From positions 1,364,001 through 1,428,000 of the forward strand of contig NZ_ATVQ01000001.1 in NCBI RefSeq assembly GCF_000420805.1: DNA of 64,000 nt. Direction: 5' to 3'. Source of the stretch: Yaniella halotolerans DSM 15476 (GTDB lineage: Bacteria > Actinomycetota > Actinomycetes > Actinomycetales > Micrococcaceae). Shown here piece after piece: positions 11,666 to 48,647 of the stretch; position 1 is the first letter of the stretch; the number at the start of each line of letters is the position of its first letter. Under the pieces are notes generated by a model. It was not told where the DNA came from. It saw nothing but the letters and a program-made list of their open reading frames with translations, and did not search any database. The translations under genes and the position numbers were made by a program.

Positions 11666-11669
11666 CGCT

Positions 11670-13215: not shown

Positions 13216-13292
13216 ACCCTTTCTGCAGCCCAGAAAAACTCTGAGGATTTATACAGGAACTTTCAAGCGTTTCTCAAAGATCATTTCTTAGA

Positions 13293-13327
13293 CTAGGGAG
13301 CACCTCTTCAAGGTGTGAGTGATGAGT
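13293..13327 (+). repeat. hairpin leader repeat, copy B
   Basis: CACCT-CTTCA-AGGTG hairpin and CAAGGTGTGAGTGATGAGT (13309-13327), one base different from copy A, again just before a strong terminator. Confidence 0.5.
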
Positions 13328-13330
13328 GAT

Positions 13331-13359
13331 CAGGGCCCCGGTACAAAACCGGGGCCCTG
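13331..13359 (+). terminator. second terminator downstream of thrC
   Basis: Perfect 12-bp stem CAGGGCCCCGGT / ACCGGGGCCCTG with loop acaaa. It is not followed by a clean T-run. The 128 nt between it and the MFS stop at 13488 show no gene. Confidence 0.7.
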
Positions 13360-13487
13360 AGTCGTTAGCACCTAGGCCAGTTGGCCGTCTCTTTGGCGGT
13401 CGGTAAGCTATGTTTCAGGGCCTTGAGGGTTCGGCCGTGACGAGGCACCGCAGGGAGATGGAGTGCCGTCCGGGATCAAAACGAAGC

Positions 13488-14729
13488 TTAGCTATTTGGG
13501 GCCTTCGACCCCGACGTGAGAATCAATGTGCAGGCAATCCCTAGCGCAGAAAAGCCTACGGTTACCCACCACGAGGAGTTCCACGAACCGGTCACCATCA
13601 CCACCCATGCAAGCAATGAGGGCCCAAAGAAATTCCCGACATTGAATATCTGCTGCATGAGTCCTATCACTGCTGCGACGGAGCCTTCAGGTGGAGCAAG
13701 ATCGACGGCAAGGCGACTCAGTAGTGCGGGCACCGTGCCACCGATCATTGAGAAGAAGATGGCACAGAGGAGCTGTCCTGCTAGCCCAAGCGCTGTGGGT
13801 TTCCAGTCAATCGAGAAAAATAATAGCGATGTGATGGCCATGATCATGAATGTAGCGACGACAATGTGTCGTATCTGGATGCCATTGCTCAGGAGTCGCC
13901 CGGCTATGAGCGCACCGATAACGTTAACGCCGCCGACCACGGCAGACAATAATGCTGCCTGGAGGGGAGCGATGTCGGCGGCAGCGAACACGGTTGGAAG
14001 GAAACTCATAACAGCCATCCACTGCAGAGTGTAGGAGGCAAATGTAAGGCCTGCTACCCATGGGCGCCAGGTCCTGACCGTCGTCACAATGCGGTGCCCC
14101 GAGTTTCTCATGAGATTTTCTGCAGGTTGATGCGGATCTGGATCAGTCGATCGCAACAGCGGGATGATCAGGAGCAGTGTGAGCACTGCTAGGACTACCC
14201 ACAGAAGCCGCCAGCTGAGCACTTCCAATAACAGGCCACCTGCAGCAAAACCCACGATGGTGGCGGTGCCTTGAAATGCCCCCCAGGCTGAGAGCGCCAC
14301 GTTCAGCTGGACGGGAGCGCAAACGCGACGAATGAGGGCGGGGGCGAGCACTGTACATAGCAAAAACCCAATACCCTCAATGCCGCGATACAGCATAAGG
14401 AGGCGGATCGATGTAGTGGTGGCACCAAGGAATGAGCCAGCGGCTAGAAGCAATAATCCCGCGACGATTAGACGGCGCAGGCCGGCCATTTCTCCGCCCC
14501 ACGCGACTAGCAAGCCTCCGACCATGCTGGCGAATTGAATGATCCCCAGCAGCAGGCCCGACGTCAGGAGGCTCATGCCGAGCTCTGATTCGAGTGCTGG
14601 CAGCGCTACGGGCAGTTTCCAGATGTGGATCGCAGCCATGACACCCGCGGTGACAACGGTCAGCCAAGCGCTGTTCGAGTGAACCTGTCGCGTAGCCGCG
14701 TTATGGGAAACTGTAGTCGGTTGGACCAA
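13488..14729 (-). CDS. MFS transporter (CynX/NimT-like)
   Basis: Twelve-segment major-facilitator carrier (413 aa), best matching the CynX/NimT-type branch. After a short polar N-terminus come hydrophobic helices with VGGLLVAWGGEMAGLRRLIVAG, the loop 2-3 region, and WGAFQGTATIVGFAAGGLLLE. I place the start at TTG 14729 because GAGGAG sits 7 nt upstream; a longer frame to 14828 would run into the divergent promoter and an IclR-type box. Divergent from the IclR regulator, so it is a likely target. Substrate is inferred to be an aromatic or organic acid from context only. Confidence 0.82.
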   Translation of the reverse strand: MVQPTTVSHNAATRQVHSNSAWLTVVTAGVMAAIHIWKLPVALPALESELGMSLLTSGLLLGIIQFASMVGGLLVAWGGEMAGLRRLIVAGLLLLAAGSFLGATTTSIRLLMLYRGIEGIGFLLCTVLAPALIRRVCAPVQLNVALSAWGAFQGTATIVGFAAGGLLLEVLSWRLLWVVLAVLTLLLIIPLLRSTDPDPHQPAENLMRNSGHRIVTTVRTWRPWVAGLTFASYTLQWMAVMSFLPTVFAAADIAPLQAALLSAVVGGVNVIGALIAGRLLSNGIQIRHIVVATFMIMAITSLLFFSIDWKPTALGLAGQLLCAIFFSMIGGTVPALLSRLAVDLAPPEGSVAAVIGLMQQIFNVGNFFGPSLLAWVVMVTGSWNSSWWVTVGFSALGIACTLILTSGSKAPNS

Positions 14730-14789
14730 TGAAGCACTCCTCTGTCTCTGGGATGATTGTGCCGGGAAAGCTCCCTGCGCGACGACAGC

Positions 14790-14808
14790 TATCCGTCTAA
14801 TGGAAAAC
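14790..14808. promoter_or_regulatory. IclR-type box 1 (MFS/IclR intergenic)
   Basis: TATCCGTCTAATGGAAAAC has a right half (ATGGAAAAC) identical to box 2 at 15686; the left half is degenerate (ATCCGT for TTCCAT). It lies between the divergent MFS and IclR genes, where autoregulation is expected. Confidence 0.5.
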
Positions 14809-14855
14809 TGGTAGACAACCACGTACAATCAAGTGCGCGCTAGAAGGAGTGTGCT

Positions 14856-15647
14856 ATGGCGAATCCCCGTCCTCGTCATCCGCGACGCGAACCCCAAGAT
14901 GGGGCGACTAAAAACGATACGGTAACGGCTCGGTCTCTGGCATTGCTGGGGGCGTTTGGTCCTGGTCGAACGCGATTGTCACTGAGCGAGATGGCTAGGC
15001 GAGCGAATCTGCCGGTTTCTACGGCGCACCGCTTGGTCACGGAGCTCGTGACATGGGGAGCCTTAGAACGAGTGAATAATGAGTACGTCATCGGTCAGCG
15101 ACTGTGGAAGCTCGGGCTCTTAGCGCCCATTCGCCAAAATATGGCCGAAATTGCCGCGCCCTATATGCAGGACGTGTTGTTCGTGACGCATAACGTCGTG
15201 AATCTTTTTGTGTTGGAGGGCAGCCGCGTGCTCTTGCTGGAGCGAATTTCCGGGACGCGTGTCGGTGCGCCATTCCGTAAGGTAGGGGACCCTCTGCCGT
15301 TGCACGCGTCCGCGGCTGGCAAAGTTATGTTGGCTTTTGCTGGGCAGCAGCTCATGTCACAGGCTACCAAAGATATGGTGCGTCTGACCGAGCACACCTT
15401 GATGACGCCGCAAGATTTGCGGGTAGAGGTCGAGGCTGTGAAGAAAGCCGGATACGCATTGTCGAATCAAGAAGTCGGCATGGACAACTACGCGGTCGCC
15501 GTCCCAGTACTGGGCCCGATGGGTCAAGCTGTTGCAGCACTCGGCGTCGTGCACCAGGTGGCACCTTCGGTTGGTTCCGTTGTCCCCGTGCTGCGGATCG
15601 CAGCACGGGGGATAGCCAGAAGCTTGAGTACCGTGGAGAGCTTCTAG
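14856..15647 (+). CDS. IclR family transcriptional regulator
   Basis: IclR-type regulator (263 aa). The N-terminal winged helix-turn-helix is at ~25-80 (RSLALLGAFGPGRTRLSLSE, then ARRANLPVSTAHRLVTELV). The C-terminal effector domain has the usual MQDVLFVTHNVVNLFVLEG, RISGTRVGAPFRKVGDPLPL, HASAAGKVMLAF and NQEVGMDNYAVAVPV. IclR proteins commonly respond to aromatic or carboxylic acids and bind TGGAA/TTCCA palindromes. Three such sites lie in this region. The ATG has AAGGAG upstream. Probable controller of the P450, SDR and aldehyde-dehydrogenase genes. Confidence 0.92.
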   Translation: MANPRPRHPRREPQDGATKNDTVTARSLALLGAFGPGRTRLSLSEMARRANLPVSTAHRLVTELVTWGALERVNNEYVIGQRLWKLGLLAPIRQNMAEIAAPYMQDVLFVTHNVVNLFVLEGSRVLLLERISGTRVGAPFRKVGDPLPLHASAAGKVMLAFAGQQLMSQATKDMVRLTEHTLMTPQDLRVEVEAVKKAGYALSNQEVGMDNYAVAVPVLGPMGQAVAALGVVHQVAPSVGSVVPVLRIAARGIARSLSTVESF

Positions 15648-15685
15648 CTGGATCACATCAAGATATGATCCGAATCATAGAATTC

Positions 15686-15704
15686 TTTCCATTAGATGGA
15701 AAAC
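15686..15704. promoter_or_regulatory. IclR-type box 2 (upstream of reductase-P450)
   Basis: TTTCCATTAGATGGAAAAC is a near-perfect palindrome (TTTCCAT-TAG-ATGGAAA) about 95 nt before the reductase start. It has the TTCCA/TGGAA half-sites typical of IclR operators. Confidence 0.7.
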
Positions 15705-15797
15705 AGTTCTTGCTGTGATGTGGAGTACTTCTAATGTTGACTCAAGTTCATTGCCCCGTCCGTCTGGGGCGGTCCCGATGAAAAGGAGAGCTAGAGC

Positions 15798-16778
15798 GTG
15801 ACTATCACTGCACCATCCAAGGCCCCCGCCACGCTTGACACCGTGATTGAGTCGGCTGAAAAAGTTGCCGATGAAGTTCTCTCGCTGGAGTTGCGCAAAG
15901 TAGATGGTACTGATTTCCCTGCTTGGGAACCTGGAGCACACATCGACGTACACCTTGGCGACGACCTGATCCGTCAGTATTCGGTGTGTTCGACTCCTGA
16001 CGATCTGTCGGTTTTGAAAATTGGTGTTCTGCGCACGCCAGACTCCCGTGGTGGCTCAGCGTACGTTCATGAGCATCTCACCCCAGGAACTGCGCTGACC
16101 ATCTCAGCCCCACGCAATAACTTTCCGCTCCTGAAATCTCGCAAGTATCTCTTCATTGCCGGCGGTGTTGGCATTACGCCGATGATCCCGATGCTGGAAC
16201 AAGCAGAAGCTGAAGGCAAGGAATGGGTCTTGCACTATGGAGGCCGCTCCCGAACCAGCATGGCGTTCGCTGATGAATTGCTGGCCAAATACGGCCCAGA
16301 GAAGATATTGCTGTATGCCAATGATGAAGATAACGGCCTGGACCTGAACGCCGTCCTCGCACTACCCCGTGCTCACATGCTCGTCTATGCATGTGGCCCG
16401 GGTGGCATGCTGACCGCTATTGAAGAACTTTGCATGGGTTGGCCCCCGGGCGTGCTGCACACCGAACGTTTCGTGGCGGCTGAACTTGGCGCAGCATCCA
16501 GCAGCGAGCCATTTGAAGTTGAGCTTGCTCAAACTGGTGGCAGCGTCAAAGTCCAGCCAAACCAGTCTATCGTGGACGCTGTTGAAGAGGCCGGTGCGCG
16601 TGTCCTGTCGAGCTGTCGCGCTGGACTGTGCGGCACATGTGAAACGCGCATTATCTCTGGTGAACCAGAACATCGCGATGCTGTCCTGACGCAGGAAGAC
16701 AAAGATGCCGGTGAAGTCATGCTGGTCTGCGTTTCCCGTGCTGCTGCTGGTTGCAGTCGTTTAGTACTTGATTTGTGA
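15798..16778 (+). CDS. PDR/VanB-type oxidoreductase (flavin, NAD and C-terminal 2Fe-2S)
   Basis: Reductase of the phthalate-dioxygenase-reductase family (326 aa), passing electrons from NAD(P)H through flavin and a 2Fe-2S centre to an oxygenase. Flavin motif RQYSVCSTP is at 59-67, the nucleotide-binding AGGVGITPM at 121-129, and the plant-type ferredoxin domain at the C-terminus with Cys273, Cys278, Cys281 and Cys311 (SCRAGLCGTC...VC). PDR members use FMN. The start is GTG 15798 after AAAGGAGAG. The P450 follows after a 17-nt gap, so this is its likely redox partner. An IclR-type box precedes the gene. Confidence 0.93.
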   Translation: MTITAPSKAPATLDTVIESAEKVADEVLSLELRKVDGTDFPAWEPGAHIDVHLGDDLIRQYSVCSTPDDLSVLKIGVLRTPDSRGGSAYVHEHLTPGTALTISAPRNNFPLLKSRKYLFIAGGVGITPMIPMLEQAEAEGKEWVLHYGGRSRTSMAFADELLAKYGPEKILLYANDEDNGLDLNAVLALPRAHMLVYACGPGGMLTAIEELCMGWPPGVLHTERFVAAELGAASSSEPFEVELAQTGGSVKVQPNQSIVDAVEEAGARVLSSCRAGLCGTCETRIISGEPEHRDAVLTQEDKDAGEVMLVCVSRAAAGCSRLVLDL

Positions 16779-16795
16779 TTCACCGAGGAGCTTTT

Positions 16796-17995
16796 ATGAC
16801 TACCATTATAGAACCAACAGTTTTCACCGAAGACCCCTTCACTGAAGCAGCTATCGCTGACCCATATCCATTTCTTGAACGCTTGCGTGAAGCAGGTCCG
16901 GTCAGTTATTTAGAGGCCACCGGGACCTACGCGATTGTTGGCTACAAAGAAGTCTATGAAGTGCTCATGGACTTTGAGACTTACGTGTCATCCGGCGGTC
17001 TTGGCCCACGTGACATCCGCGAGGATGACGCGTGGCGTCCACCGAGCATTCTCGAATCTGACCCACCGATTCACACGGTTATGCGCCGCGCCCTGACTGG
17101 TGTGATTAACCCGGGCACCGTGCGCGCCTTGCGTGAACCATTCACACTTCCCGCCGTCGAGATTGTCAGCGAGCTGGCAAAGCTCGACAGTTTCGACGTC
17201 GTGACACAATTGGCGGAAAAATACCCAATTCGGGTGTTCCCTGATGCAGTTGGTCTGCCGGAAGAGGGGCGCGAACACCTGCTGCCGTACGGCAATATGG
17301 TGTTCAACGCTTTCGGTCCGGAGAACTACATTTACCAGCAGGCGTTTGCGAATGGCGATGAGCACTCGGCTGTCGTCATGAAACTCTGTGCCCGGGAATC
17401 CCTTGATGATGTCGGTTTCGGTTCAAAAATCTGGGATCGTGTCAAAGACGGTCTCATTACCGAAGAACAGGCAGCGCTGCTTGTTCGCGCTCTGCTGTCC
17501 GCAGGTGTTGACACCACAATCTTCGGTATTGGGAACACTCTGTCGGTCCTGGCGCGCTACCCAGAAGCTTGGCAGCGTCTACGGGAAAACCCGACCATGG
17601 CCAAATTTGCCATCGACGAAGCGCTCCGCGTTGAATCTCCGTTCCAGAAATTCCACCGCACCGTGGCAACAGACACAGTTCTAGGTAATGTCCACATTCC
17701 TGCTGGTTCGAAGATCCTTGTGTTTGTTGGTGCGGCTAACCGCGACCCGCAGAAATGGGGCGACGACGCCGCAGAGTTTAGTCTCGACCGCAGCTCATCC
17801 GGCCACGTAGCATTCGGCATGGGCTTGCACCAATGTGTCGGCCAGCCAATCGCACGGCTTGAGATGGAGATCGTCCTCCAGGAAATGCTCGAGAAATTCG
17901 AAACCCTCGAATTGGACGGAGCCCCGTCGCCGTTGATTCACAACGTATTGCGCGGCTTCGATTCCATCCCGGTAAAGGTTACCCCTAGCCGCTAA
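16796..17995 (+). CDS. cytochrome P450 (CYP199-like, aromatic-acid demethylase candidate)
   Basis: Soluble bacterial P450 (399 aa). The heme loop is FGMGLHQCVGQP (Cys347), the I-helix oxygen motif AGVDTT is at 236-241, and the K-helix ExxR is EALR at 275-278. The segment RVFPDAVGLPEEGREHLLPY followed by NAFGPEN resembles CYP199A enzymes that O-demethylate para-substituted benzoates such as 4-methoxybenzoate. Here a single PDR-type partner replaces separate ferredoxin and reductase. ATG 16796 has GAGGAG upstream; a start at 16775 would overlap the reductase. Substrate is inferred from resemblance and context. Confidence 0.92.
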   Translation: MTTIIEPTVFTEDPFTEAAIADPYPFLERLREAGPVSYLEATGTYAIVGYKEVYEVLMDFETYVSSGGLGPRDIREDDAWRPPSILESDPPIHTVMRRALTGVINPGTVRALREPFTLPAVEIVSELAKLDSFDVVTQLAEKYPIRVFPDAVGLPEEGREHLLPYGNMVFNAFGPENYIYQQAFANGDEHSAVVMKLCARESLDDVGFGSKIWDRVKDGLITEEQAALLVRALLSAGVDTTIFGIGNTLSVLARYPEAWQRLRENPTMAKFAIDEALRVESPFQKFHRTVATDTVLGNVHIPAGSKILVFVGAANRDPQKWGDDAAEFSLDRSSSGHVAFGMGLHQCVGQPIARLEMEIVLQEMLEKFETLELDGAPSPLIHNVLRGFDSIPVKVTPSR

Positions 17996-34330: not shown

Positions 34331-35323
34331 GTGAAGCGTTCTTGTCGCGGGAATGATCACCGGGACGTTGTGAATGGCAGGGGCCGACCACCCATTGTCG
34401 TGTGGTTTGCTTCGACTCTCCTAGGCATCGTCACCCTGGCCGGAGTCATTGTGGTCGGGGTGTCAACAGCTTCGGCAGATCTGCGGATGGAGGCCTCACC
34501 TATGCCACGGGATGCGTCGTTGTATAACGAATTCGAAGGGTCCGCGTACCACCTGTATGCCCGAGATATTGACTGGGACCAACCGGTCGGCGTCGTCTAC
34601 TACTTTGCTGGCGATTACTTCCGAAAATCTGAAAGCGTGTTCCACCACCCGCGCGGTGCGACACTGCAGACCCTAGCAGCAGAAGCAGCCGCCCGAAATA
34701 TGCTCCTCGTCGTGCCACTGAGCCCGGCGGAGCGAGGGTATGAGGGCTATACCTGGTGGGAAGACGGCGAGGACAACGCCGCCTGGTTCGGCGGGCTCCA
34801 CGGACACATCACCGCACAGTATGATCTCGCATCAGAGCAGATTTGGTTCATGGGCTACTCGGGTGGTGCAGAGTTTATTGCCCAAGAAATCCTGGCCGAT
34901 TTTCAAGAGTCCTATGGTCTTGGCGGTGCACTCATGATCGGTGGGGGAGGGCCACCCGATGCGGAAGTGAGCGTGCCGCGTGGAGTGCGCGATATCCTCG
35001 GGCTCACGTGGGTCGTTGGGGACGAGGACGTAGCAGGATCCACCAATCCGCCAGATTGGTCTGCTTTGGAAGCCGCACGGTTAGGAGAACAGTTCTATCG
35101 GCAACGCGGCTTTGAACGGACGACGCTGCAGGTCGTTGAGGACACCGATCACTTGGACTACGAACTCGATGAAGTGTTGGATGCTCACTTCGACCATTTT
35201 GGTGTGCCGCGAGTTGAGACGAACGCGGTAGTGACCGCTGTCGGATGGTCATCGCTGGGTCTAGCGATAACAGGTGGTATCGGTGGACTGTTCGCGTGGC
35301 GACGCAAACGCAAAGGGAACTAG
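34331..35323 (+). CDS. membrane-anchored alpha/beta hydrolase-like protein
   Basis: 330-aa protein with a hydrophobic N-terminal signal/anchor (VVWFASTLLGIVTLAGVIVV, ~23-42), an extracellular alpha/beta-hydrolase-like domain and a C-terminal helix (SSLGLAITGGIGGLFAW) ending RRKRKGN. The nucleophile elbow is IWFMGYSGGAEF (G-x-S-x-G). A late His in EDTDHLDY may complete the site. It is not an LPXTG protein. The start GTG 34331 has no good site; GTG 34370 (VNGRGRPP) is an alternative. The gene converges on the PPTase gene and overlaps its stop by 4 nt (35320-35323). Substrate unknown; hydrolysis of an extracellular ester or peptide is possible. Confidence 0.72.
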   Translation: MKRSCRGNDHRDVVNGRGRPPIVVWFASTLLGIVTLAGVIVVGVSTASADLRMEASPMPRDASLYNEFEGSAYHLYARDIDWDQPVGVVYYFAGDYFRKSESVFHHPRGATLQTLAAEAAARNMLLVVPLSPAERGYEGYTWWEDGEDNAAWFGGLHGHITAQYDLASEQIWFMGYSGGAEFIAQEILADFQESYGLGGALMIGGGGPPDAEVSVPRGVRDILGLTWVVGDEDVAGSTNPPDWSALEAARLGEQFYRQRGFERTTLQVVEDTDHLDYELDEVLDAHFDHFGVPRVETNAVVTAVGWSSLGLAITGGIGGLFAWRRKRKGN

Positions 35324-36009
35324 GACAACGTTCGCCAAGCCAGTCCAAGATAATACGTCTGCCCTGCAATGGTTGACGGTGCCGACAACGTCGCCCACCC
35401 GTGAGGTTGGTCTGGATGGTGGTGGGTACCGACGGCGTCAACGGCAGGATCTCGTAACAACCCGGTGCCCCACGCCTTGAGCAGCGCCTCTTTCCGAGTC
35501 CAGGCTGCGGTGACCTCGTGGACGAAATGGTCTTCCCGCAGTGTCATCAGCGCCCCGCGGTCATCAGGGTGAAACAGCGTTACGAGATCCGTCGCTTGGT
35601 CGGGTGTTTGCAGCGCCTCAAGATCGACTCCAACCGGAGTCTGAGCGGTGGCCACGACGATGAACGGAGCACACCGGGACAGCGAGGTCCACAGTTGCGC
35701 TGAATTCGTGGTCGCATGCGAGTTGAGTTTTGCGCTCGCAGCACGGGCACAACGCGGATTGGCATGGCCTACGGCAGGATGAAGCACCACCTTGGAATGG
35801 TGTGCCTCAAGTTGCTCGGCGGCAGCACGTGCCAGAAAACTCTTCGCCCCCGTCGGATCGCTGTCATTGGGCTCGATCCATCCCAGGCCGGCGAGTTGTT
35901 CGGTGGTGGCACGGTGGACTCTCACATGCTGGGGGAGGCCAGGGGGCCTCCACCTCAGCGCATCAAGAGATATTGCGTCTGGATTGTGCCGGAGCACTTG
36001 ACCAGACAT
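35320..36009 (-). CDS. 4'-phosphopantetheinyl transferase superfamily protein
   Basis: PPTase-superfamily enzyme (229 aa from ATG 36009) that would transfer phosphopantetheine from CoA to a carrier-protein serine. The two signatures are visible: TPVGVDLEALQ (metal Asp and Glu) and AAWTRKEALLKAWGTGL (WxxKEA). Length and spacing fit the Sfp-type rather than AcpS. It lies 23 nt after the DUF418-like gene and at the end of the Pls-like operon, so the natural target is the carrier domain of that synthetase. A longer frame to 36138 would overlap the upstream gene. Confidence 0.85.
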   Translation of the reverse strand: MSGQVLRHNPDAISLDALRWRPPGLPQHVRVHRATTEQLAGLGWIEPNDSDPTGAKSFLARAAAEQLEAHHSKVVLHPAVGHANPRCARAASAKLNSHATTNSAQLWTSLSRCAPFIVVATAQTPVGVDLEALQTPDQATDLVTLFHPDDRGALMTLREDHFVHEVTAAWTRKEALLKAWGTGLLRDPAVDAVGTHHHPDQPHGWATLSAPSTIAGQTYYLGLAWRTLS

Positions 36010-36032
36010 AAGTGACAACCCACCGTCCTGTT

Positions 36033-37364
36033 TTAGCTGCGTGCTCGGGGATGTGCCGGCATGCAAGCCTGCGTGGCGAAGGTGGCTACGCGCGAGACGC
36101 AATACTCCAGTGGGCCGTGTGAAAACAGCCTGCGCCACAGCGTGGCGAAGGCGACCAGGACGATCACTTCGAACGTGAACAGGGCCCAGCCGGTGACGAG
36201 ACTATCAAACAAGGTCAGGAGGAAGAGGTGTCCAACATAGATGGTGATTGGCATGGTGCCAACGTCGATGATCGGCCGTAGCAGTTGCGGAAGTTTCCGG
36301 ATCAGTGCGATCAGCAGTCCAATGGCGGCCAACGAGAAGCCACAACTGGCGGCGATTGACCACGGAGTACTGGCCATCGGGGCTGCACTGAGTAACCAGC
36401 CTGGCGTAGTCGTTGGCAGTGCACCATCGGAACCGAAAACGAGGAAGCGGTCGATTTGTGTCTGAGACGCGTCGGCCATCGAACTTCTCATGGTGTTGTA
36501 GCCCTCTGGACTACGCACTAGAAACCACGATGTGAGTTTGGCTCCGAATCCAATAATGAGTCCCACGGTCAGTAACAGTAGTGGCGTACCAGGACGCAAT
36601 AAGGTCAATCGCCCAATGGCCAACCCCAGGCAGAGGAAGGTAATCCAGGTCAGCGCAGGGAACGATCCTGTCAGTAAGACGGTGGAGACCACGCCGGCTG
36701 GATCTTGGAACACGTGTGAAAAGACCGGGTTGACGTAGTGTCCGGCGCCTTGAAGCTGATAATCGAATGCATAGCGAATAAGGGGTGTGAGCAGGATAAG
36801 GACCCCGGTCACCACCAACAGTTGGCGACCGCGTAACGCATATAACGGGAGGGCCAAGAGATACATCGCCCCGATGTAGACGAGGATATCGGATTCCGGC
36901 AGCTCGACCAGGGAGTTGACCACCAGACCGAGTCCCACGAGTAACACGGCCTGAAATCCAATGTTTAACAACGACCTGTCAAAGGCTCGGCCCACATAAC
37001 GCGTATTGGCGCCGGTATCGAATGCCAAACCGATGCCGGCTATGACACAAAACAGAGCGGTTGCTGTTCCTGCAAAGAGCGTCCATGTCCAGGTTGCTTC
37101 ACCGGTGGACGGGTCGAGACGGGGCAAGGTGTGTACCGCCACCATGGCTAGGAGAGCAAACCCTTTACCCGCGTGGACGCCGATGAACCGTTGTTCGAAT
37201 AAGCGCCGACGTTTTTCTGCGGGTGTCGGTAGATATTCCGCAAAGGCCCCGTTGACCGATGGGCTGGCGGATTCCCCCGTCCAGCGGGGTCTGGGCGGTC
37301 GAGGACCGGGTGCTGGTGGAATATCCAGCGGTACGGTTGCGGGGGCGTGCTTCTCTATGGTCAT
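36033..37364 (-). CDS. DUF418/HGSNAT-like membrane acyltransferase, copy 1
   Basis: Polytopic membrane protein (443 aa, about 10 hydrophobic segments) with a ~60-residue Pro-rich cytoplasmic N-terminus. The start of the membrane part, RFIGVHAGKGFALLAMVAVH, has the family's H in helix 1 (transmembrane acyl transfer in HGSNAT). GSDGALPTTTPGWLL, MPITIYVGHLFLLTL and the C-terminal SHGPLEYCVSR recur in the paralogue at 41977. ATG has GGAGAG upstream. It lies 39 nt after the Pls-like synthetase and may acylate or move its product. Confidence 0.8.
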   Translation of the reverse strand: MTIEKHAPATVPLDIPPAPGPRPPRPRWTGESASPSVNGAFAEYLPTPAEKRRRLFEQRFIGVHAGKGFALLAMVAVHTLPRLDPSTGEATWTWTLFAGTATALFCVIAGIGLAFDTGANTRYVGRAFDRSLLNIGFQAVLLVGLGLVVNSLVELPESDILVYIGAMYLLALPLYALRGRQLLVVTGVLILLTPLIRYAFDYQLQGAGHYVNPVFSHVFQDPAGVVSTVLLTGSFPALTWITFLCLGLAIGRLTLLRPGTPLLLLTVGLIIGFGAKLTSWFLVRSPEGYNTMRSSMADASQTQIDRFLVFGSDGALPTTTPGWLLSAAPMASTPWSIAASCGFSLAAIGLLIALIRKLPQLLRPIIDVGTMPITIYVGHLFLLTLFDSLVTGWALFTFEVIVLVAFATLWRRLFSHGPLEYCVSRVATFATQACMPAHPRARS

Positions 37365-37403
37365 AAAACTCTCCGTGTCAGTAGGTGTGTGAGGAGTTCT
37401 CGG

Positions 37404-40400
37404 CTAGTTCTGCAACACAGCCGGGCGGTCCGTGTGGATAAATTGAACGGGGTTGCCTTGCCAGTAGGTATTTGGTGGCAGGGTTTCGTCGCGTAGGACG
37501 AGTGAGTCGACACCCACAACGGCCTTGGTGCCGATCGTGGAACCGGGCAACATGAAACTCGAGGCGCCCAGGGTGCCGCCTGGTTCAATTCGTGTGCGGG
37601 ATAATTCCATAACGCGGTCCTGGAAGAGGTGTGTTTGCAGCACGGTGCCGCGGTTGATGGTGGCTTGGTCGCCGATTTCGATGAGGTCGAATTCGGGCAG
37701 CCACCAGGTTTCACACCACACGTTGCGGCCGATCTTGCTACCCATCAGGCGGGCATAGACGTTGAAGAGTGGAGAACCGATGCTCACTCGAACCAGTGCG
37801 GGGACAGCTAAGGACTCTGAAAAGACATCGGCTAATTCGTTGCGCCACACGAAGGTGCTAAACAGCGGGTATTCGGTAGGACGGAAACGACCAACTAATA
37901 ACCACTTCGCTGCGACGGCAATTAAGGAGGCAACAATTCCGGTGGCCAGGGTCAGCGGCATGGCAGCTGCAACCGTGATCCCAAGGACGGTCAGATGCGA
38001 TTCGGTGGCCGCAAGCTGCGTCATGTACACGGCGTTCAAAGCGACAACCAGTCCCAATTCGATCCACACGGTGAGCATGAACGGCAGGAAGCGGAAGATC
38101 TCGACCGAACCCCGGGCCCACTTGATGCGCCGAGGTGGATGATAGGTGGCCTCTGCGTCGGCTTCTTGAATGGTGCGTGGGATGGACTGCGCTGGCCGGC
38201 CCAACCATGATGTACCGGTGGGAGCAAAGCGCGGTGTCGAGGACATGACGGCGATCAACGCCTCAGGAGGTAGGTCGGTATCGGGCCCAACAATGGCTGA
38301 GTTCCCAATAAATGTGCCCTCACCGATCACGGTGGTGCCGATATGAACCCAACCGCGACGGTGCCGTGTGCTGGTCACTAGTGCATGGTCGGCGATGAAT
38401 GTGCGATCCTGCAACCAGGTGAGGTGCGGGACGGTTTCAATCGTGGAAATCTCGGTATCTTTGCCGACTTTGGCACCCAAGAGGCGTAGAAATGTCGGGG
38501 TCGCAAGTGAAGCGTAGAGCGGATAGACGGAAATCAGGGTGCGCTGCAACAGCGCTTGGGTCAACCAGACGGCCCACCCGGTCGCTGAAGCTTCCAGAAA
38601 GTAGCCGGGGACAATCCAGCCAGCCAAAATTCTGATCAGAATAATCACGAGCGCCAACCAGGTCAGCACCATCAGCACCGCAATAAGTGGCACCCACGCT
38701 GCGAGGATGAGTGCGACTTCTTCAAAACGCTGCAGCTCTAAGATAAAAGGAAACACGATTGCTGCGCCGGGAATGATCGCCAGCACAGGCAGCAGCGTCA
38801 TGAGAGACAAGCCGGCACCATGTGCCAACACCTGGGTGGATTTACGCCAGCCCCGTAAGTCACGACGCAGGAGTCGGTGGTGGGGCCAAGATGCTCCAGC
38901 GTCCCCTTCATAGCGAATTGGCGACCCACCCCAGAGCTCGCCCTCTGGAATATCGCGGTTGACGTGGGAACCGGGCAGGATCTCGCTAAAAGCACCCACG
39001 GTTACACCGGGATCAACGATCGAACGTGTGCCGATGCGTGCCCCATCTTCTACGGTAATCGCGCCAACGTGGACGATCCCGCCTTCGATCCAATAGCCGT
39101 TTAGATCAGCTTCGAACTCAACGGTTGCTTGGGTACCTACCGTGACGAGTCCGCTGACCGGAGGCAGACTAGCAATATGTGTGCCGTGGCCCACCCGGTT
39201 GCCCATCATCCGATAAAACGTCCGAGCAAAAACGGTGCCGGCAACCGATTCTAAGCGCAGTGAATGCAGGAACCGTTCGGCGGCCCACAGCCGCACATGT
39301 GTCCATCCACCGCGCTGGTACGAACCGGGTTTAATGCCAATGGTGAGCAGGCGAGCGACCGCACTGGCTTGCAGCATTTTTCCGGGGGTAGAAAACATCA
39401 GCAGCCAGCCCAGCAGTACTGGAAGCAGCGGTACGGTGGGGACCCAGCCGGCATCGACGGTCCAACCCAGTAGCCACACCACGGCGATTAACGCGACAAC
39501 ATAGCGCAGTGCATTGACCCCGTAATTGGCGATAATAAAACCCAGTTGGAACACTTTGGGCCAAAAGGGTAGCGGATCCGGCATCGGTCGATCGGACTCG
39601 ACGCTCTCTAAAGCATCCAAATATGCTGCCATTGAGGACAGTGTTGGGTGAGCGTAGAGTTCGCGAATTTCAGCGGTGGGATGCGAGGTGCGGATATTGG
39701 CCATCAAGCGAGCCACCTGCACTGATCCACCGCCGATCTCAAAAAAGTTCGTTTCCGACGACATTGGCAACGGCCCCAGTTGATCGACCCACAGGTCTTT
39801 CAACCAGGCTTCGGTGATTGAGAGATCAGAATGGTCATCCGTATCGTCGCTAGGCAGCGGCCACGGCAGGGCTTTGCGATCGACCTTCCCAGATGTTTTC
39901 ATCGGGAGTTCGTCAACCACAGCCAACATTGGGACCACACCCCCGGGCAACCGTTGCGACATCAGGTGTCGAGCCTGGGCAACGTCGATGGTCTCGCCGG
40001 GCTGCTCGGTGAGGTAACCGACCAAAATTTCGGCGCCACCATTGGTTTTTTGCAGAACAGCGGCACCGGCACTCACCCCCGGCACCTCCATGAGGTATTC
40101 ATCGACCTCACCAAGCTCAATGCGCTTGCCGCCGAGCTTGATCTGATCATCGGTGCGGCCAACGAAAATTAGTCCTGTTGGCTCAGCGACAACCATGTCA
40201 CCGGTACGATAAGCACGTTCCCAGCCCAGCGATTCCAGCGGAGCGTATTGAACGGCGTCGCGTTCGGCATCGAGATAGCGTGCGACACCGACGCCACCGA
40301 CCACGAGTTCACCGGTATCACCCCATTGCACGGGCTGCTCAGTGACCGGATCAACGACGGCCAAATGCCAGCCGGTAATCGGCCGGCCGATACGAACAGG

Positions 40401-41402
40401 GGGCTCTGGGGTCATGATGGCGCCCGATACGATGACCGTGGTCTCGGTAGGGCCGTAGGTATTCCAAATTTCGCGACCCGGTTTTTCAAGGCGAACGATC
40501 AAATCCAGGTGGATTGCTTCGCCTCCAAAAATCAGCAGGCGAACAGCATCCAAGGACTCTGGTGGCCAGAGGGATGCCAGCGTTGGCACCGTGGAGACCA
40601 CGGTGATCGCCTGATCTACGATCCATTTTCCGAGATCGGGCCCGGAACGAACGACATCGCGTGGTGCTGCGACCAATGTGCCGCCGCGCCGCCATGCAAG
40701 CCACATCTCTTCGCAAGAAGCATCGAAGGCAACCGATAGGCCTGCCATGACGCGGTCTCCCGGATGGATCGGTTGCTGGCTGAGAAAAAGATCAGCCTCA
40801 ACATCCACCAGCGCTGCGGCAGACCGATGCGTCACCGCAACGCCTTTGGGCTTGCCTGTCGACCCCGAAGTGAAGAGCACCCAGGCGTCGTCTTCCGGTG
40901 TTGGCGGTGGGTATCCACCACCGTGCGCCTGGCGTTGCAGAGCTGGTTCATACGGTGTGATGTCTAGGGATTCGCCGATGACGGCGGCGACGTCTGCTTC
41001 TGCAAACACTGTGACAGCTCGTTCGTCAGGGTCATCCCAATCTACGGGAACGTAGGCTGCCCCGGCTTGCATAATTGCAAGGATTGCCACGTAGAGATCC
41101 GTGGTTCCGGAGGGGACCCGGACGCCAACTCGATCGCCGCGACGCACACCGGCTTCGTTGAGTCCGTCGGCTACAGCAAGAACACGCTCGTTGAGCTGTG
41201 CGTAGGTTAATTCTTCTGAGTCGGATTCCAAGGCCGGAGTGTCTGGATACCGAGCTACTGTCGATTGAAATACTTCAACGAGAGTCCGCTGTGCAGGGGG
41301 TTCCTCGTGTCCGTATATTGCAAAAACCGGATGATCGAGTCGCTCATCCCGTTCTAGTTCTCTTCCGTCTGAGCGATCGGTGTGAGAAGTCGTAGCCGTC
41401 AA
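37404..41402 (-). CDS. Pls-like single-module NRPS (poly(amino acid) synthetase)
   Basis: 1,332-residue enzyme (1,339 from an upstream ATG at 41423). Numbered from that ATG: an adenylation domain at ~45-520 (LFTSGSTGKPKG 183-194; NTYGPTETT 321-329; SGKVDRK with Lys513), a carrier domain with Ser567 (NFFEIGGGSVQV), then membrane segments alternating with three left-handed beta-helix domains at ~745-870, ~1000-1100 and ~1215-1339. There is no condensation or thioesterase domain. This matches Pls, the epsilon-poly-lysine synthetase, in length and order. The Stachelhaus positions read D-A-E-S-I-G-T-V-I-K, like codes I recall for lysine (e.g. BacB). TTG 41402 has GAGG 8 nt upstream; ATG 41423 has none. 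The PPTase at 35320 probably activates it. Confidence 0.88.
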   Translation of the reverse strand: MTATTSHTDRSDGRELERDERLDHPVFAIYGHEEPPAQRTLVEVFQSTVARYPDTPALESDSEELTYAQLNERVLAVADGLNEAGVRRGDRVGVRVPSGTTDLYVAILAIMQAGAAYVPVDWDDPDERAVTVFAEADVAAVIGESLDITPYEPALQRQAHGGGYPPPTPEDDAWVLFTSGSTGKPKGVAVTHRSAAALVDVEADLFLSQQPIHPGDRVMAGLSVAFDASCEEMWLAWRRGGTLVAAPRDVVRSGPDLGKWIVDQAITVVSTVPTLASLWPPESLDAVRLLIFGGEAIHLDLIVRLEKPGREIWNTYGPTETTVIVSGAIMTPEPPVRIGRPITGWHLAVVDPVTEQPVQWGDTGELVVGGVGVARYLDAERDAVQYAPLESLGWERAYRTGDMVVAEPTGLIFVGRTDDQIKLGGKRIELGEVDEYLMEVPGVSAGAAVLQKTNGGAEILVGYLTEQPGETIDVAQARHLMSQRLPGGVVPMLAVVDELPMKTSGKVDRKALPWPLPSDDTDDHSDLSITEAWLKDLWVDQLGPLPMSSETNFFEIGGGSVQVARLMANIRTSHPTAEIRELYAHPTLSSMAAYLDALESVESDRPMPDPLPFWPKVFQLGFIIANYGVNALRYVVALIAVVWLLGWTVDAGWVPTVPLLPVLLGWLLMFSTPGKMLQASAVARLLTIGIKPGSYQRGGWTHVRLWAAERFLHSLRLESVAGTVFARTFYRMMGNRVGHGTHIASLPPVSGLVTVGTQATVEFEADLNGYWIEGGIVHVGAITVEDGARIGTRSIVDPGVTVGAFSEILPGSHVNRDIPEGELWGGSPIRYEGDAGASWPHHRLLRRDLRGWRKSTQVLAHGAGLSLMTLLPVLAIIPGAAIVFPFILELQRFEEVALILAAWVPLIAVLMVLTWLALVIILIRILAGWIVPGYFLEASATGWAVWLTQALLQRTLISVYPLYASLATPTFLRLLGAKVGKDTEISTIETVPHLTWLQDRTFIADHALVTSTRHRRGWVHIGTTVIGEGTFIGNSAIVGPDTDLPPEALIAVMSSTPRFAPTGTSWLGRPAQSIPRTIQEADAEATYHPPRRIKWARGSVEIFRFLPFMLTVWIELGLVVALNAVYMTQLAATESHLTVLGITVAAAMPLTLATGIVASLIAVAAKWLLVGRFRPTEYPLFSTFVWRNELADVFSESLAVPALVRVSIGSPLFNVYARLMGSKIGRNVWCETWWLPEFDLIEIGDQATINRGTVLQTHLFQDRVMELSRTRIEPGGTLGASSFMLPGSTIGTKAVVGVDSLVLRDETLPPNTYWQGNPVQFIHTDRPAVLQN

Positions 41403-41976
41403 AATGTCTACCTCTAAATTCATTTGTATTCTGAAAACACTTGACTTTTTCAGTACTTTAAATCACTGTCCGTCTAGACATGCTTGATTCTTTCGTTTAG
41501 AAAGTCAATCAAGTTGCTCGGGTGACTCCTAAGTAATCGACGCTTTTATGGGTAGAGTGTGCAGCTAGGTATCCGTTTATTGTGGCGGAAAAAATACTTG
41601 AATGTCGCAAGTTCCTTGCAATAGTGCCGATTTCAACTAATGCAAATTTGAGGTAGTTGATGGCTGATGTGGGCCTTCTTAGGTGTGAGGTGCGTTACAG
41701 TCAAGCTTTTGCGGAATCTGGAGTGCTTCTGTTGCGTCTAGACACGTCAAGTTTGCTGCGCTTGTACATTAAAGCGTTCTTACACCTGCGGAGTATCGGT
41801 ATTTGTTCAACAATATCCGGGTATTCGGAGCTGAAACTTGGCTGCGAAGATGCTGGGCAAAATGACGATGAGCCTCACAAAATCAAACTTGCCGTATCGA
41901 CGCGACGTTACTGTTCAATATTCTGGTTGAGAGCCCAGATTCTGGAGGGCTGCAGCAGTCCTCGCAGGGGAGAGAT
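41403..41976. other. AT-rich divergent promoter region of the Pls-like locus
   Basis: No convincing gene in 574 nt of visibly lower G+C than its surroundings. A palindrome at 41483-41513 lies about 80 nt from the synthetase start. A 107-codon plus-strand frame at 41657 is rejected. The 41977 ribosome site GGGGAGAG is at the right end. Confidence 0.5.
41483..41513. promoter_or_regulatory. imperfect palindrome upstream of the Pls-like synthetase
   Basis: CTTGATTCTTTC pairs with GAAAG-tc-AATCAAG (12 bp with a 2-nt bulge). It may be an operator, or a hairpin in the synthetase mRNA leader. Confidence 0.35.
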
Positions 41977-43179
41977 ATGACTACTAGCACCACAGGCCGC
42001 CGCGTCGTTGCCGTTGATATCACGCGCGCATTAGCCATCATTGGCATGATTGCAGTGCATTCGTTATACGCCTATAACGCGCAAGGCGGACCGAGCCTGA
42101 GCTATTCACTGGCTGCTGGAAAGTCTGCCGCTGCGTTCGCCGTCCTGGCAGGCGTGAGTATCTCGTTTATTGTTGGCCGGAAGCGACTTGCGGGTCCGGC
42201 GGCCCGAGGCAAGATCGCCTCACTTATGGCTCGTGCTGGAGTCATTGGCATCATTGGGCTGCTGCTGGGATATACCGATGGTGAGATAGCCGTGGTTATT
42301 CTGCCCTACTATGCAGCGATGTTTGCACTCGCGATTCCTCTAGCAGCGCTGTCTACCCGTGCGCTAGTGATAACCGGGCTGTCGATATTGTTCACTATGC
42401 CCGTGCTGAGTCAATTGCTGCGTCCCCACGTGCCCGATGGTCTGCCGCGCCAACTCGATTTCGTTTATCTTTTTACGGCCCCAGCGGAATTTGCCTCGGA
42501 TGTTTTCTTGACCGGACAGTTTCCCGCGCTCGTGTGGATGTTTTATATCTGCGTCGGGCTCATAATCGGTCGGTGCCACCTGCGCTCGTTCAAGACTATC
42601 GTGAGCATGCTTGGGCTCGGTGCGGCAATGGTTGGTGTCGCGGCCTTCGCCTCCTGGTATATTTTGCAGCTAGCTGGCGTTGCAGGGCACCTGCGCACTA
42701 CCGTCTCTGCTGAGCATGCCGCCACACTGTTGAGTTTTGGTGGTGATGGTTCGGTGCCAACCTCCAGTTGGTGGTGGCTTGCACTCAATACGCCTCATAC
42801 CGGGACACCCCTAGATCTCCTCACCACGACGGGTTATACGATGCTTGTTTTGGGATTCCTGTTGGGGCTCGAGCGCATCCTGCCAGGACACATCCACCGA
42901 GTCTTCACTATGCTGTCCTTCCCATTAGCGGCTGCCGGGACGATGGCGCTGACCGTATACGTTGGTCACATCATCTTTATTAACTCGCCGTTGGACGCGG
43001 CTGGGGCGGTATCCACTTTCTGGTGGCAGCTCGTTGTCATCGGGGTGGTGTCTAGTGTTTGGAGCGTGTTGTTTGATCGGGGGCCGCTTGAAGGAATGGT
43101 CACTTCAGTAACGAAGTTCGTAGAGCGACGTACCAATCTGAGACATCAACGCGCCAAAGAAGCGGTGGGCCACCGATAA
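41977..43179 (+). CDS. DUF418/HGSNAT-like membrane acyltransferase, copy 2
   Basis: Membrane protein (400 aa, about 10-11 segments). Helix 1 is VVAVDITRALAIIGMIAVHS, with the His in the same place as copy 1. FGGDGSVPTSSWWWLALNTP, MALTVYVGHIIFI and FDRGPLEGMV align with the 36033 gene, so the two are paralogues. ATG follows GGGGAGAG. It lacks copy 1's Pro-rich tail. It is divergent from the synthetase operon and ahead of the SIP gene. Confidence 0.8.
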   Translation: MTTSTTGRRVVAVDITRALAIIGMIAVHSLYAYNAQGGPSLSYSLAAGKSAAAFAVLAGVSISFIVGRKRLAGPAARGKIASLMARAGVIGIIGLLLGYTDGEIAVVILPYYAAMFALAIPLAALSTRALVITGLSILFTMPVLSQLLRPHVPDGLPRQLDFVYLFTAPAEFASDVFLTGQFPALVWMFYICVGLIIGRCHLRSFKTIVSMLGLGAAMVGVAAFASWYILQLAGVAGHLRTTVSAEHAATLLSFGGDGSVPTSSWWWLALNTPHTGTPLDLLTTTGYTMLVLGFLLGLERILPGHIHRVFTMLSFPLAAAGTMALTVYVGHIIFINSPLDAAGAVSTFWWQLVVIGVVSSVWSVLFDRGPLEGMVTSVTKFVERRTNLRHQRAKEAVGHR

Positions 43180-46039: not shown

Positions 46040-48559
46040 CTAATGCTGCCTAGTGACGCCGGCCTCAAGAGCCAAATACTTGCCGGTCATAGAGTTCTGG
46101 TCTTGGCTCAACTGCGCTGGCGAAGCCGCCGCGACAACGTCTCCGCCGGCCGACCCTGCGCCTGGCCCCATATCGATCACGTGATCTGCCGAGGCGATGA
46201 CGGATTGGTCATGTTCAACCACAATGACGGTGTGCCCGTGGACGACCAGTCGGTGCAGCTGAGCATTTAACAGTGCCACGTCTGCCGGGTGTAGCCCGGA
46301 CGAGGGCTCGTCAAGTAGATACAGCGTGTGTTTGGTGGTGATGCGCTGCAGTTCGGTCGCGAGTTTGATGCGCTGCGCCTCCCCGCCTGAAAGTTCGGTG
46401 GCTCGTTGTCCAAGCGTGATGTAGCCCAGCCCGATCGCATCGAGTGCCTCAAGTGCGCGCAGGACCGCAGCCTCGTCGGCAAAGACCTGCTTTGCTTCGT
46501 GGACGGAGAGCTCAAGGATATCGGCGACCGTATAGCCATTCCAGGTAACCTCCAAGACCTCAGACTTGAAGCGTTGGCCGTGGCACGCCGGACACGTGGC
46601 ATACGAGCCCGGCAAGAAGATGAGCTCGACTTCAATCTGTCCTAAGCCGAAACATTCGGGGCAACGTCCCTCGGCCACATTGAACGAAAACCGGCCGATG
46701 CCCCAGCCACGTTGCTGCGCCGCATCGGTGCCGGCAAAAATTCGACGGACCCGGTCAAACAGCCCGGTATACGTTGCCACCACCGAACGCGGAGTCCTGC
46801 CAATGGGGCGTTGCGTAATGTGGACGAGACGCTGAATGTGTTCCAGCCCGGTGACCTCACGAATTGTCACATCATCGGTATCGTCAGCCTCGTCACTGGT
46901 CGGTTCATCGGAGACCGTAGCGGAAACGCTGTTGCCCACCACGGTGCCAAGAACATGGGTCACCAGCGTGGATTTCCCAGAGCCAGAGACCCCGGAGACC
47001 GCGGTCAACTGTCCCAAGGGGAACTCAACATCGAGGTTTGTGATGGTTCGTGAATTCACGCCTTCGAGTTGCAGTGTGCCGGTGGCTTCACGACTCGGTG
47101 TGGACTTGAGCTGCAACGGCGGAGCGTTGATGAACCGGGCGGTAATCGATTCTTCAACGTCAGCCAGACCATAGATGGGTCCCGAATAGATGACCCGGCC
47201 ACCACTGGTACCTGCTTTGGGGCCCACATCAATGACCCAGTCTGCTTTGGCCACCAGAGACATATCGTGCTCGACGAGCAGGACGGAATTTCCTTCGGCG
47301 ATAAATCGCTCAAATAGTTTGGAGAGCATGTGCTTTTCTGCCGGGTGCAGACCGGCAGACGGCTCATCGAGCACGTAGGCCACGCCGAAGAGGCCTTCGC
47401 GCACCTGTGAAGCCAGGCGCAGGCGCTGCAGTTCTCCGGTCGATAACGTATTGGCCGCACGGTCCATTGAGAGATGGCCAAGGCCGAGACCGGTGACGGC
47501 TTCCAAAACCGATATGGCGGCAGGCAGCAGGATTCGTTCTGCCCCCTGCTCTGGTCCATCATCACGTGCGTCCAACTCAGAAAGGGCCCGGTGACGGTCC
47601 TGCAGAGCCTCCAGTAAGGCGTCCAAACTGAGGTGGGTGAGCTGCCAAATCGTTGAATTAAGGTAGCGAACCTGCAGCGCTGCAGCGTTCAACCGGTGCC
47701 CATCACAGGTTGGACAAGTTCTCGAGGTGAAAAAGCTCAAAGCCCGGGCGCGGTTTGTGTCGGATTTCGTGGTCGCGACGGTGCGGTGCAAGTAGCGGGC
47801 AACAGATTCCCATTGGCCCTCATAGGGTCCTTGTGTGCGCCAGGCTTCCCGCACTGGAACAACGGTAATAACGGGTGTTTCCTCTGTATAGAGGATCCAT
47901 TCCCGGGTTGCTTTGTCTAGGTCGCGCCAGGGTGCAGCTGTGTTGACGCCTATGGTTTCGAGAATCTCCCGAAAGTTTTTGCCGAGCCATGCTCCGGGCC
48001 AGGCGGCGATGGCGCCGTCCAGGATGCTCAGGTTTGGGTCTGGGACCATGAGTTCTTCGGCGGGATCAAACTGCTTACCCACACCCTGGCAGTGCGGGCA
48101 CATGCCCTCGGCGGTATACGGTGAAAAGTGGCCCGCGGTTAACCGCCCACCGGCAATACCGTGGGCGTCGTCTAAAATTTCTTCCGGGTGGTCGCCTGCG
48201 CGTGAGAACAGCAAGCGTATGGAATTCGACAGAGCGGTAATGGTACCAACATCTGAGCGGGCGCCACCAGCTGAGGTACGTTGCTCCAGGGCAACGGTAG
48301 GTGGCATACCATCGACGATTTCGACCTGGGGGTCGACGGCTGAGCCGATGAGTCGACGGGCGAACGGTGCGACTGATTCGAGATAGCGGCGCTGTGCTTC
48401 ACCATGAATTGTGCCGAAGGCGAGCGAGGATTTTCCTGAACCCGAGACGCCGGTGAAAGCAACAACCGCCCCGCGTGGAAATTGCACTGAAATGTTCTTC
48501 AGATTGTGTAGTTTCGCATCGACGATGTGCACGAAATTGGCATCGCTGTGGTTTGGCAT
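46040..48559 (-). CDS. UvrA2-like ABC ATPase
   Basis: Tandem ABC ATPase (839 aa) of the class II UvrA type. The first Walker A is [20 protein letters not shown] and the second is [18 protein letters not shown]. The zinc-module cysteines are in [19 protein letters not shown] and [11 protein letters not shown]...[10 protein letters not shown]; signature [15 protein letters not shown] and [15 protein letters not shown]. It is ~100 residues shorter than UvrA, the size expected without the UvrB-binding domain. Members are tied to antibiotic or DNA-damage tolerance. I use ATG 48559 (AAGGG upstream) instead of GTG 48565. Confidence 0.93.
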
Positions 48560-48647
48560 AGTCACCCTTCGAAAAACTCAGTGCATTCAACAGTAGTGTT
48601 TTAGTAGCGGAATACGCAGGTTCGGGAGACTGGTGAAGTAAGCGCCG

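Follow-up and report, generated by a model that had tools for sequence, protein, structure and literature searches.

An HGSNAT-type acyltransferase gene accompanies one clade of poly-lysine synthetases: a locus in Yaniella halotolerans and a possible route to an acylated polymer

RESULTS

A Pls-type synthetase locus in Yaniella halotolerans

We analyzed a 64,000-nucleotide stretch of the Yaniella halotolerans DSM 15476 genome (contig NZ_ATVQ01000001.1, positions 1,364,001 to 1,428,000), hereafter the window, which carries a gene (pls) for a Pls-type poly(amino acid) synthetase. The product associated with Pls, epsilon-poly-lysine, is a natural antimicrobial polymer and a food preservative. On the same strand, 39 bp downstream of pls, lies a gene for P0002, a homologue of the HGSNAT/DUF418-type transmembrane acyltransferases, and next to it a gene for P0003, a 4′-phosphopantetheinyl transferase (PPTase) (Table 1). 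The Pls kind itself was already known; our searches of open-licence PubMed Central articles listed no earlier account of an acyltransferase of this type as the partner of a Pls clade.

Table 1. Features of the pls locus and of related loci
Feature	Position	Strand	Remarks
Pls synthetase	37404..41423	-	1339 aa, A-T-(TM-C)x3, 4′-phosphopantetheine site Ser567; TIGR02353, 7wew match, pocket
P0002, downstream HGSNAT/DUF418-type transmembrane acyltransferase homologue	36033..37364	-	443 aa; PF07786 38.7 bits, PF04235 26.9 bits
P0003, Sfp-type 4′-phosphopantetheinyl transferase	35320..36009	-	PF01648 43.4 bits, cut-off 25
P0004, divergent second HGSNAT-type transmembrane acyltransferase	41977..43179	+	400 aa; PF07786 36.5 bits
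pls/second acyltransferase intergenic region, genes divergent	41424..41976	.	553 bp
P0005, predicted extracytoplasmic membrane-anchored alpha/beta serine hydrolase	34331..35323	+	candidate triad S177, D233, H274; convergent to PPTase gene
dapA after pls	loci L110-L117, L119, L121-L135		clade 1, first set

A preliminary description of this DNA had recognized a Pls-type architecture, with adenylation (A) and peptidyl carrier protein (PCP, or T) domains, membrane segments and tandem domains and with no condensation (C) or thioesterase (TE) domain, and this holds. The A domain spans residues 52-382 (PF00501) and the PCP residues 540-602 (PF00550), and Pfam found no condensation or thioesterase domain in Pls at E 1e-3. 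The C-terminal 700 amino acids, which had been proposed for a search against TIGR02353 (the Pls/PosA family), match positions 6-695 of its 695 at 546.8 bits, over a curated cut-off of 423.1. By hydropathy, the membrane stretches fall into three groups (~630-679, 865-945 and 1109-1180), each long enough for two transmembrane (TM) segments and hence six in all, the layout described in PMC8117764. Three hexapeptide-like blocks are separated by these groups; Pfam Hexapep scores 25.8, just under its cut-off of 27. The Pls enzymes of Streptomyces albulus and Corynebacterium variabile are described with the same A-T-(TM-C)x3 layout and likewise without a C or TE domain (PMC8117764). A Protein Data Bank (PDB) sequence search gave 7wew, an epsilon-poly-L-lysine synthase, as the best match (E 9.6e-173), ahead of the second at 6.3e-122.

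The protein is 1339 amino acids long from an ATG start. The length of about 1,332 given previously applies if translation begins at a TTG seven codons in, whereas the serine assigned as the phosphopantetheine site, Ser567 of the PCP motif GGGS (564-567), is right in the 1339-residue numbering. The window Pls was compared with 127 relatives at 260 columns that are near-invariant (at least 97%) among them; it differs at 13, for the most part by conservative changes, and keeps all 40 polar or aromatic C-region positions conserved at 98.5%. Position 1268, in C3 and outside this 98.5% list, has Gln for His; 126 of the 127 others have His, and Gln recurs in L104. From its sequence, the pls gene looks intact.

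The pocket points to lysine as the monomer

The A-domain pocket of the window Pls, read by alignment, is DAESIGTVI, compared to DAESIGTVV in the solved synthase 7wew; with the usual Lys it becomes DAESIGTVIK. All 128 aligned Pls proteins of both clades defined below carry DAESIGTV(V/I) or DAESIGTII, and the pockets of L136 and L142 are normal when read by alignment. Lysine pockets are reported to have Ala at position 2, ornithine pockets Met, and those of enzymes for shorter diamino acids (PDAP and PDAB) Phe; the pocket of PosA, an ornithine enzyme, is DMEHNGTVSK (PMC10522769). This comparison covered 7wew, PosA and the PDAP/PDAB enzymes, and on the pocket evidence we set other monomers aside. 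With a single V/I exchange separating the pocket from that of an epsilon-poly-lysine synthase, the monomer is most likely L-lysine, and we consider synthesis of a lysine polymer at this locus highly probable. The product class proposed in the preliminary description, a poly(diamino acid), thus stands and is narrowed to lysine by the pocket.

That pls shares an operon with an acyltransferase-like and a PPTase gene likewise holds: the matches of P0002 (HGSNAT_cat, DUF418) and of the PPTase (ACPS) all exceed the Pfam gathering scores. A GTG open reading frame (ORF) for the PPTase would extend up to 36138 and overlap the acyltransferase gene, which the ATG at 36009 avoids. The description of this enzyme as the locus's own PPTase fits the genome, which holds two ACPS-family matches, P0003 and an AcpS-sized protein of 123 amino acids. 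Because there are just these two, P0003 likely activates Pls.

Pls enzymes fall into two clades

The locus had been called an orphan, undescribed in this lineage. Neither label fits the locus as a kind. The TIGR02353 domain scores above cut-off in 163 of the 295 sampled genomes of the window's family, Micrococcaceae, and in 1 of 9 from its genus. A Pls match at E 1e-150 occurs in 183/242 Corynebacterium genomes, and a class-wide sample gave a Pls match in 92 of 394 genomes, with a score in the clade 1 range (below) for the window's own genome only. Jiang et al. (2021, PMC8117764) found Pls homologues among coryneform actinobacteria, including Corynebacterium, Arthrobacter, Glutamicibacter and Micrococcus, described pls genes as widespread in cheese and skin coryneforms, and obtained epsilon-poly-lysine by expressing the C. 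variabile Pls in Streptomyces coelicolor.

Full-length relatives of the window Pls split into clade 1, at 1341 bits or more (49-57% identity), and clade 2, the classical Pls, at 1204 bits or less (~42-49%); the identities to the window meet at 49%, while the bit scores leave a gap. In a tree of 46 clade 1 sequences, 82 clade 2 sequences and 7wew, from which PosA, PDAP and PDAB were absent and the fragmentary Pls of L094 and L137 were omitted, a branch with a support of 100 separates clade 1 from the rest, and 7wew lies within clade 2, the sister clade to that of the window Pls. The latter groups with three Corynebacterium sequences (support, 98) on a long branch. Named clade 1 loci, among the best 80 of 593 confirmed stretches, come from Kocuria, Citricoccus, Nesterenkonia, Arthrobacter, Paeniglutamicibacter, Zafaria and Corynebacterium. 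Against TIGR02353, genomes with a classical Pls outscore those in which the best Pls belongs to clade 1.

At L117, probably from Paeniglutamicibacter antarcticus, a clade 1 pls (7901-11893) stands beside a lower-scoring one of the classical type (13231-17262). A Corynebacterium genome (G697) has two clade 1 pls-acyltransferase loci, L310 and L311, about 82 kb apart.

An acyltransferase gene is tied to clade 1

We searched the surroundings of pls in a first set of 48 clade 1 and 82 clade 2 loci; of the classical places in one listing of relatives, 16 were taken. An initial, untrimmed hidden Markov model (HMM) gave apparent HGSNAT matches at 48/48 clade 1 and 58/82 classical loci; ORF extensions had run into pls, and the matches compared lay over the Pls gene, so this result was rejected. 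With the linked-acyltransferase profile rebuilt on trimmed columns, an HGSNAT-type gene is present at 47/48 clade 1 loci and at 0/82 clade 2 loci, and phmmer agrees. The sole clade 1 locus without it is L094, where the contig ends 89 bases past the Pls frame and the Pls is split by a stop.

Corynebacterium, with clades assigned by score and identity and not by tree, gave the same picture. The acyltransferase gene follows the clade 1 pls in 20 of 20 regions from 19 genomes (20 of the 34 listed clade 1 rows were taken), and it is found beside the clade 2 pls in none of 18. These 18 regions (L312-L329) come from 18 of the same genomes that gave the clade 1 loci. Joining both sets, with L297 removed as a duplicate of L157, an HGSNAT/DUF418-type (TmAT) gene lies at 66/67 clade 1 loci and at 0/100 classical ones; some species may be common to both collections (for instance through L158 or L161). 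Loci L154-L156, L159, L160 and L162-L167 duplicate contigs already included and were not counted. At least 5 kb was available on both sides for 44/48 and 17/19 clade 1 loci and for 74/82 and 17/18 classical loci, i.e., 91/100; the shortest classical flanks (L325, L179, L233 and L145) reach 0.2 to 1.4 kb downstream, 0.2 kb in L325, and a partner there could be missed. The preliminary description had spoken of a possible acylation step. This linkage strengthens the suggestion, with acylation itself still something that we infer.

The acyltransferase gene sits right after pls, after dapA, or in combination with an added divergent copy; the window is one of 10 first-set loci with such an extra copy. 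Other genes come and go. A dapA family gene is present at 24/48 clade 1 and 0/82 classical loci of that set, directly after pls with the ORFs overlapping or at most 50 bp apart, and one of these genes matches DHDPS in Pfam at E 1.5e-78. dapA is a lysine-pathway gene, and its position beside pls fits lysine supply. An M1 peptidase gene is found at 17 of the 48 clade 1 loci, all 17 of which also have the acyltransferase, compared to 74/82 clade 2 loci and 0/18 Corynebacterium clade 2 regions (one cut 0.2 kb downstream). YkuD-like and PPTase genes occur at 21/48 and 17/48 clade 1 loci, respectively. The acyltransferase gene is therefore the constant partner of clade 1 pls, while the dapA, M1 peptidase, YkuD-like and PPTase genes vary. 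The linkage counts argue for a retained function rather than for many independent events.

The YkuD-like protein (L135:4457-5560 and homologues, at the same 21 loci) is predicted to be secreted and has an L,D-transpeptidase-like stretch; it has no Pfam match at 1e-3.

The window locus differs from classical ones in its neighborhood. Besides belonging to a separate clade at ~42-49% identity, it has an acyltransferase, a PPTase and an alpha/beta hydrolase in place of the PldII-type M1 peptidase described as adjoining classical pls (PMC8117764). The PldII peptidase is a common neighbor rather than a trait of the enzyme itself, and the 18 Corynebacterium classical loci are likewise without it.

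Fold and acyl-CoA-site residues of the linked acyltransferases

The AlphaFold2 model of P0002 (pLDDT 83.8) has eight PDB matches at a probability of 1.00, with E values of 2.2e-3 to 4.6e-2, none below 1e-3, and TM scores of 0.44 to 0.51; the other matches among the 50 shown have a probability of 0.13 or less. Six of the eight are chains titled human HGSNAT. The remaining two are 8jkv, which is HGSNAT according to PMC12423673, and 8jl4, whose title is uninformative. By Pfam match and fold, P0002 is thus a TmAT relative. PDB sequence searches with the acyltransferase and hydrolase alignments gave nothing convincing.

The acyl-CoA site of the TmAT superfamily (HGSNAT, DUF418, AT3) is described as DxxR, FxxxxG, an Arg in TM3 and a Tyr in TM9, extended in the AT3 family to DxxRx10H; two other TmAT families have Lys in place of Arg (PMC12423673). 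The linked proteins share the fold and these residues, including the AT3-style His. In the first set, the D and R of DxxR and the TM3 Arg are kept in 56 of 57 linked proteins, and the His and the other checked positions in all 57. DxxRx10H is kept in 19 of 20 linked proteins from Corynebacterium; one contig is common to the two residue sets. P0004 keeps DxxRx10H, FxxxxG, the TM3 Arg and the TM9 Tyr. P0002 and P0004 lie on opposite sides of the tree of partner proteins, both on long branches, so a recent duplication is not apparent.

A predicted secreted hydrolase

The family of P0005 is found at 32/67 clade 1 loci and 0/100 clade 2 loci. P0005 has no Pfam family at 1e-3. Its model, of moderate confidence (pLDDT 70.9), is that of an alpha/beta hydrolase. 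The best Foldseek match (E 2.4e-9) is an esterase, and esterases lead the list; depolymerases are among the matches, with poly(aspartic acid) hydrolase-1 at rank 35 and PahZ1, which presumably has the same activity, at rank 42. Ser177 is present in 31/31 family rows that have the residue, and Asp233 and His274 in 32/32. A basic segment followed by a membrane stretch at the N terminus suggests that P0005 is extracytoplasmic.

DISCUSSION

Pls enzymes in general hold the monomer as a thioester and condense it via the epsilon-amine. We propose that the Y. halotolerans locus encodes an epsilon-poly-L-lysine-type isopeptide pathway of a separate Pls lineage, whose product is acylated at the outer face of the membrane. 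We hold this proposal at about even strength. What the sequences and models show is the synthetase architecture, the lysine-type pocket, the gene linkage, the fold and motifs of the acyltransferases and the intact second copy. From these we infer that the polymer is made and acylated, which acyl donor serves and what the secreted hydrolase does. The PPTase would arm Ser567 of Pls, and the A domain would activate L-lysine. The tandem C domains in the membrane would then join lysines via the epsilon-amine as the chain exits the cell. The HGSNAT/TmAT-type protein would take an acyl group, probably acetyl, from cytosolic acyl-CoA and transfer it to the polymer after export, with free alpha-amines or a chain end as the most likely sites. 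This may alter the polymer's charge, how toxic it is to the producer or how stable it is. The secreted hydrolase might cut the chain or strip acyl groups. A tie that is specific to one clade and spares the other Pls in the same genomes is best read as modification of the product.

Several points weigh against this proposal. Neither dapA nor an M1 peptidase gene, both of which back the lysine reading elsewhere, is present at the window locus. The linkage counts share ancestry, the clade label being one change on the Pls tree. HGSNAT homologues are common, with at least one (E 1e-5) in 216/295 genomes of the family, and the linkage leaves the acylated target undefined. The first copy in the window is degenerate: alone among the 57 linked proteins of the first set, P0002 has His64 and Lys67 where DxxR has its D and R, and Gln138 in place of the TM3 Arg, so that it departs from the TmAT acyl-CoA site. 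It may be inactive. Finally, cultures of C. variabile, and of C. glutamicum with the C. variabile pls, are reported to have given no detectable epsilon-poly-lysine (PMC8117764), and so such loci can be silent. Judging by the residues, P0004 is the likely catalyst in the window, and P0002 may be decaying or act as a scaffold.

A more elaborate form of the proposal is tentative, and we rather doubt it. Here, the clade 1 Pls would make an acylated isopeptide polymer whose amines the TmAT protein masks at exit and which the surface-anchored serine hydrolase later unmasks or cuts. A masked antimicrobial would replace self-protection by a peptidase, and the two acyltransferase copies of the window would split roles, P0004 being intact and P0002 lacking the acyl-CoA residues yet kept. 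Our literature searches, made among open-licence PubMed Central articles, found no acylated isopeptide polymer of this kind and no published link between polylysine synthesis or poly(amino acid) synthetases and these acyltransferases.

Could the acyltransferase serve self-protection? Many of the sugars acylated by TmAT proteins are envelope sugars, and producers need protection. The polymer would then be ordinary epsilon-poly-lysine, and acylation of the producer's envelope would reduce polycation binding. In the Y. halotolerans genome, M1 peptidase matches reach just 26-29% and none is close to the PldII type, while most classical loci in the first set do carry such a gene, and several TmAT proteins are described as acylating extracytosolic sugars (PMC12423673). 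However, peptidase and acyltransferase stand together at 17 clade 1 loci, which argues against a simple replacement, and the Corynebacterium classical loci lack the peptidase and yet have no acyltransferase either. Two Pls kinds in one genome would also need equal protection of the envelope, so the tie to a single clade fits product modification better. We regard envelope acylation as unlikely.

The HGSNAT-type protein could instead be a noncatalytic or accessory partner of Pls, acting in chain release, length control or export. P0002 keeps its operon position despite the loss of three conserved acyl-CoA-site residues, and the lower TIGR02353 scores of genomes with a clade 1 Pls as their best also lean this way. 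Retention of DxxRx10H in 56/57 and 19/20 linked proteins, together with the intact second copy in the window, speaks for catalysis, a Pls itself is described as synthesizing and excreting its polymer (PMC8117764), and an HGSNAT-type gene is found at 0/100 classical loci. An accessory role is improbable.

That clade 1 polymerizes another diamino acid (ornithine, diaminobutyrate, diaminopropionate or beta-lysine) is more improbable still. Clade 1 is just ~42-49% identical to classical Pls, and we found no measured product for any member assignable to it. Against this stand the pocket shared by all 128 aligned Pls, distinct from that of PosA and from the Phe-bearing PDAP/PDAB pockets (PMC10522769), and dapA in half of the first-set clade 1 operons (24/48). 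PosA, the delta-poly-L-ornithine synthetase of Acinetobacter baumannii, belongs to the common family of cationic homopolymer synthetases but is described as having, besides its ornithine pocket, a single-gene operon without obvious cotranscribed neighbors (PMC10522769). Least plausible is that the acyltransferase and hydrolase genes are neutral neighbors retained by common descent: the clade label, and hence the acyltransferase, is indeed a single change on the Pls tree, but the linkage persists across gene arrangements in two families while the dapA, M1 peptidase, YkuD-like and PPTase genes vary.

If one Pls lineage does make an acylated product, capture methods aimed at free polycations could miss such a polymer, and the charge, toxicity and uses of a naturally acylated poly-lysine would not be those of the free polymer. 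We do not offer acylation as an explanation for the culture negatives of C. variabile, whose Pls could not be assigned to a clade. In 18 Corynebacterium genomes both Pls kinds occur and just one kind is accompanied by the acyltransferase, so the question can be tested directly there. The tie to pls also offers a concrete candidate acceptor for a group of bacterial TmAT proteins.

Other features of the window

A scan of positions 41300-42100, around the divergent start of pls and the second acyltransferase gene, for promoter consensus sequences gave no more matches than chance. The locus does not stand out from the window in GC content at third codon positions (GC3), and thus gives no compositional sign of recent transfer. 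Elsewhere in the window, positions 46040-48565 encode a protein of 841 amino acids with two ABC-ATPase-like halves containing CxxC motifs, which, from the sequence, looks like a UvrA paralogue.

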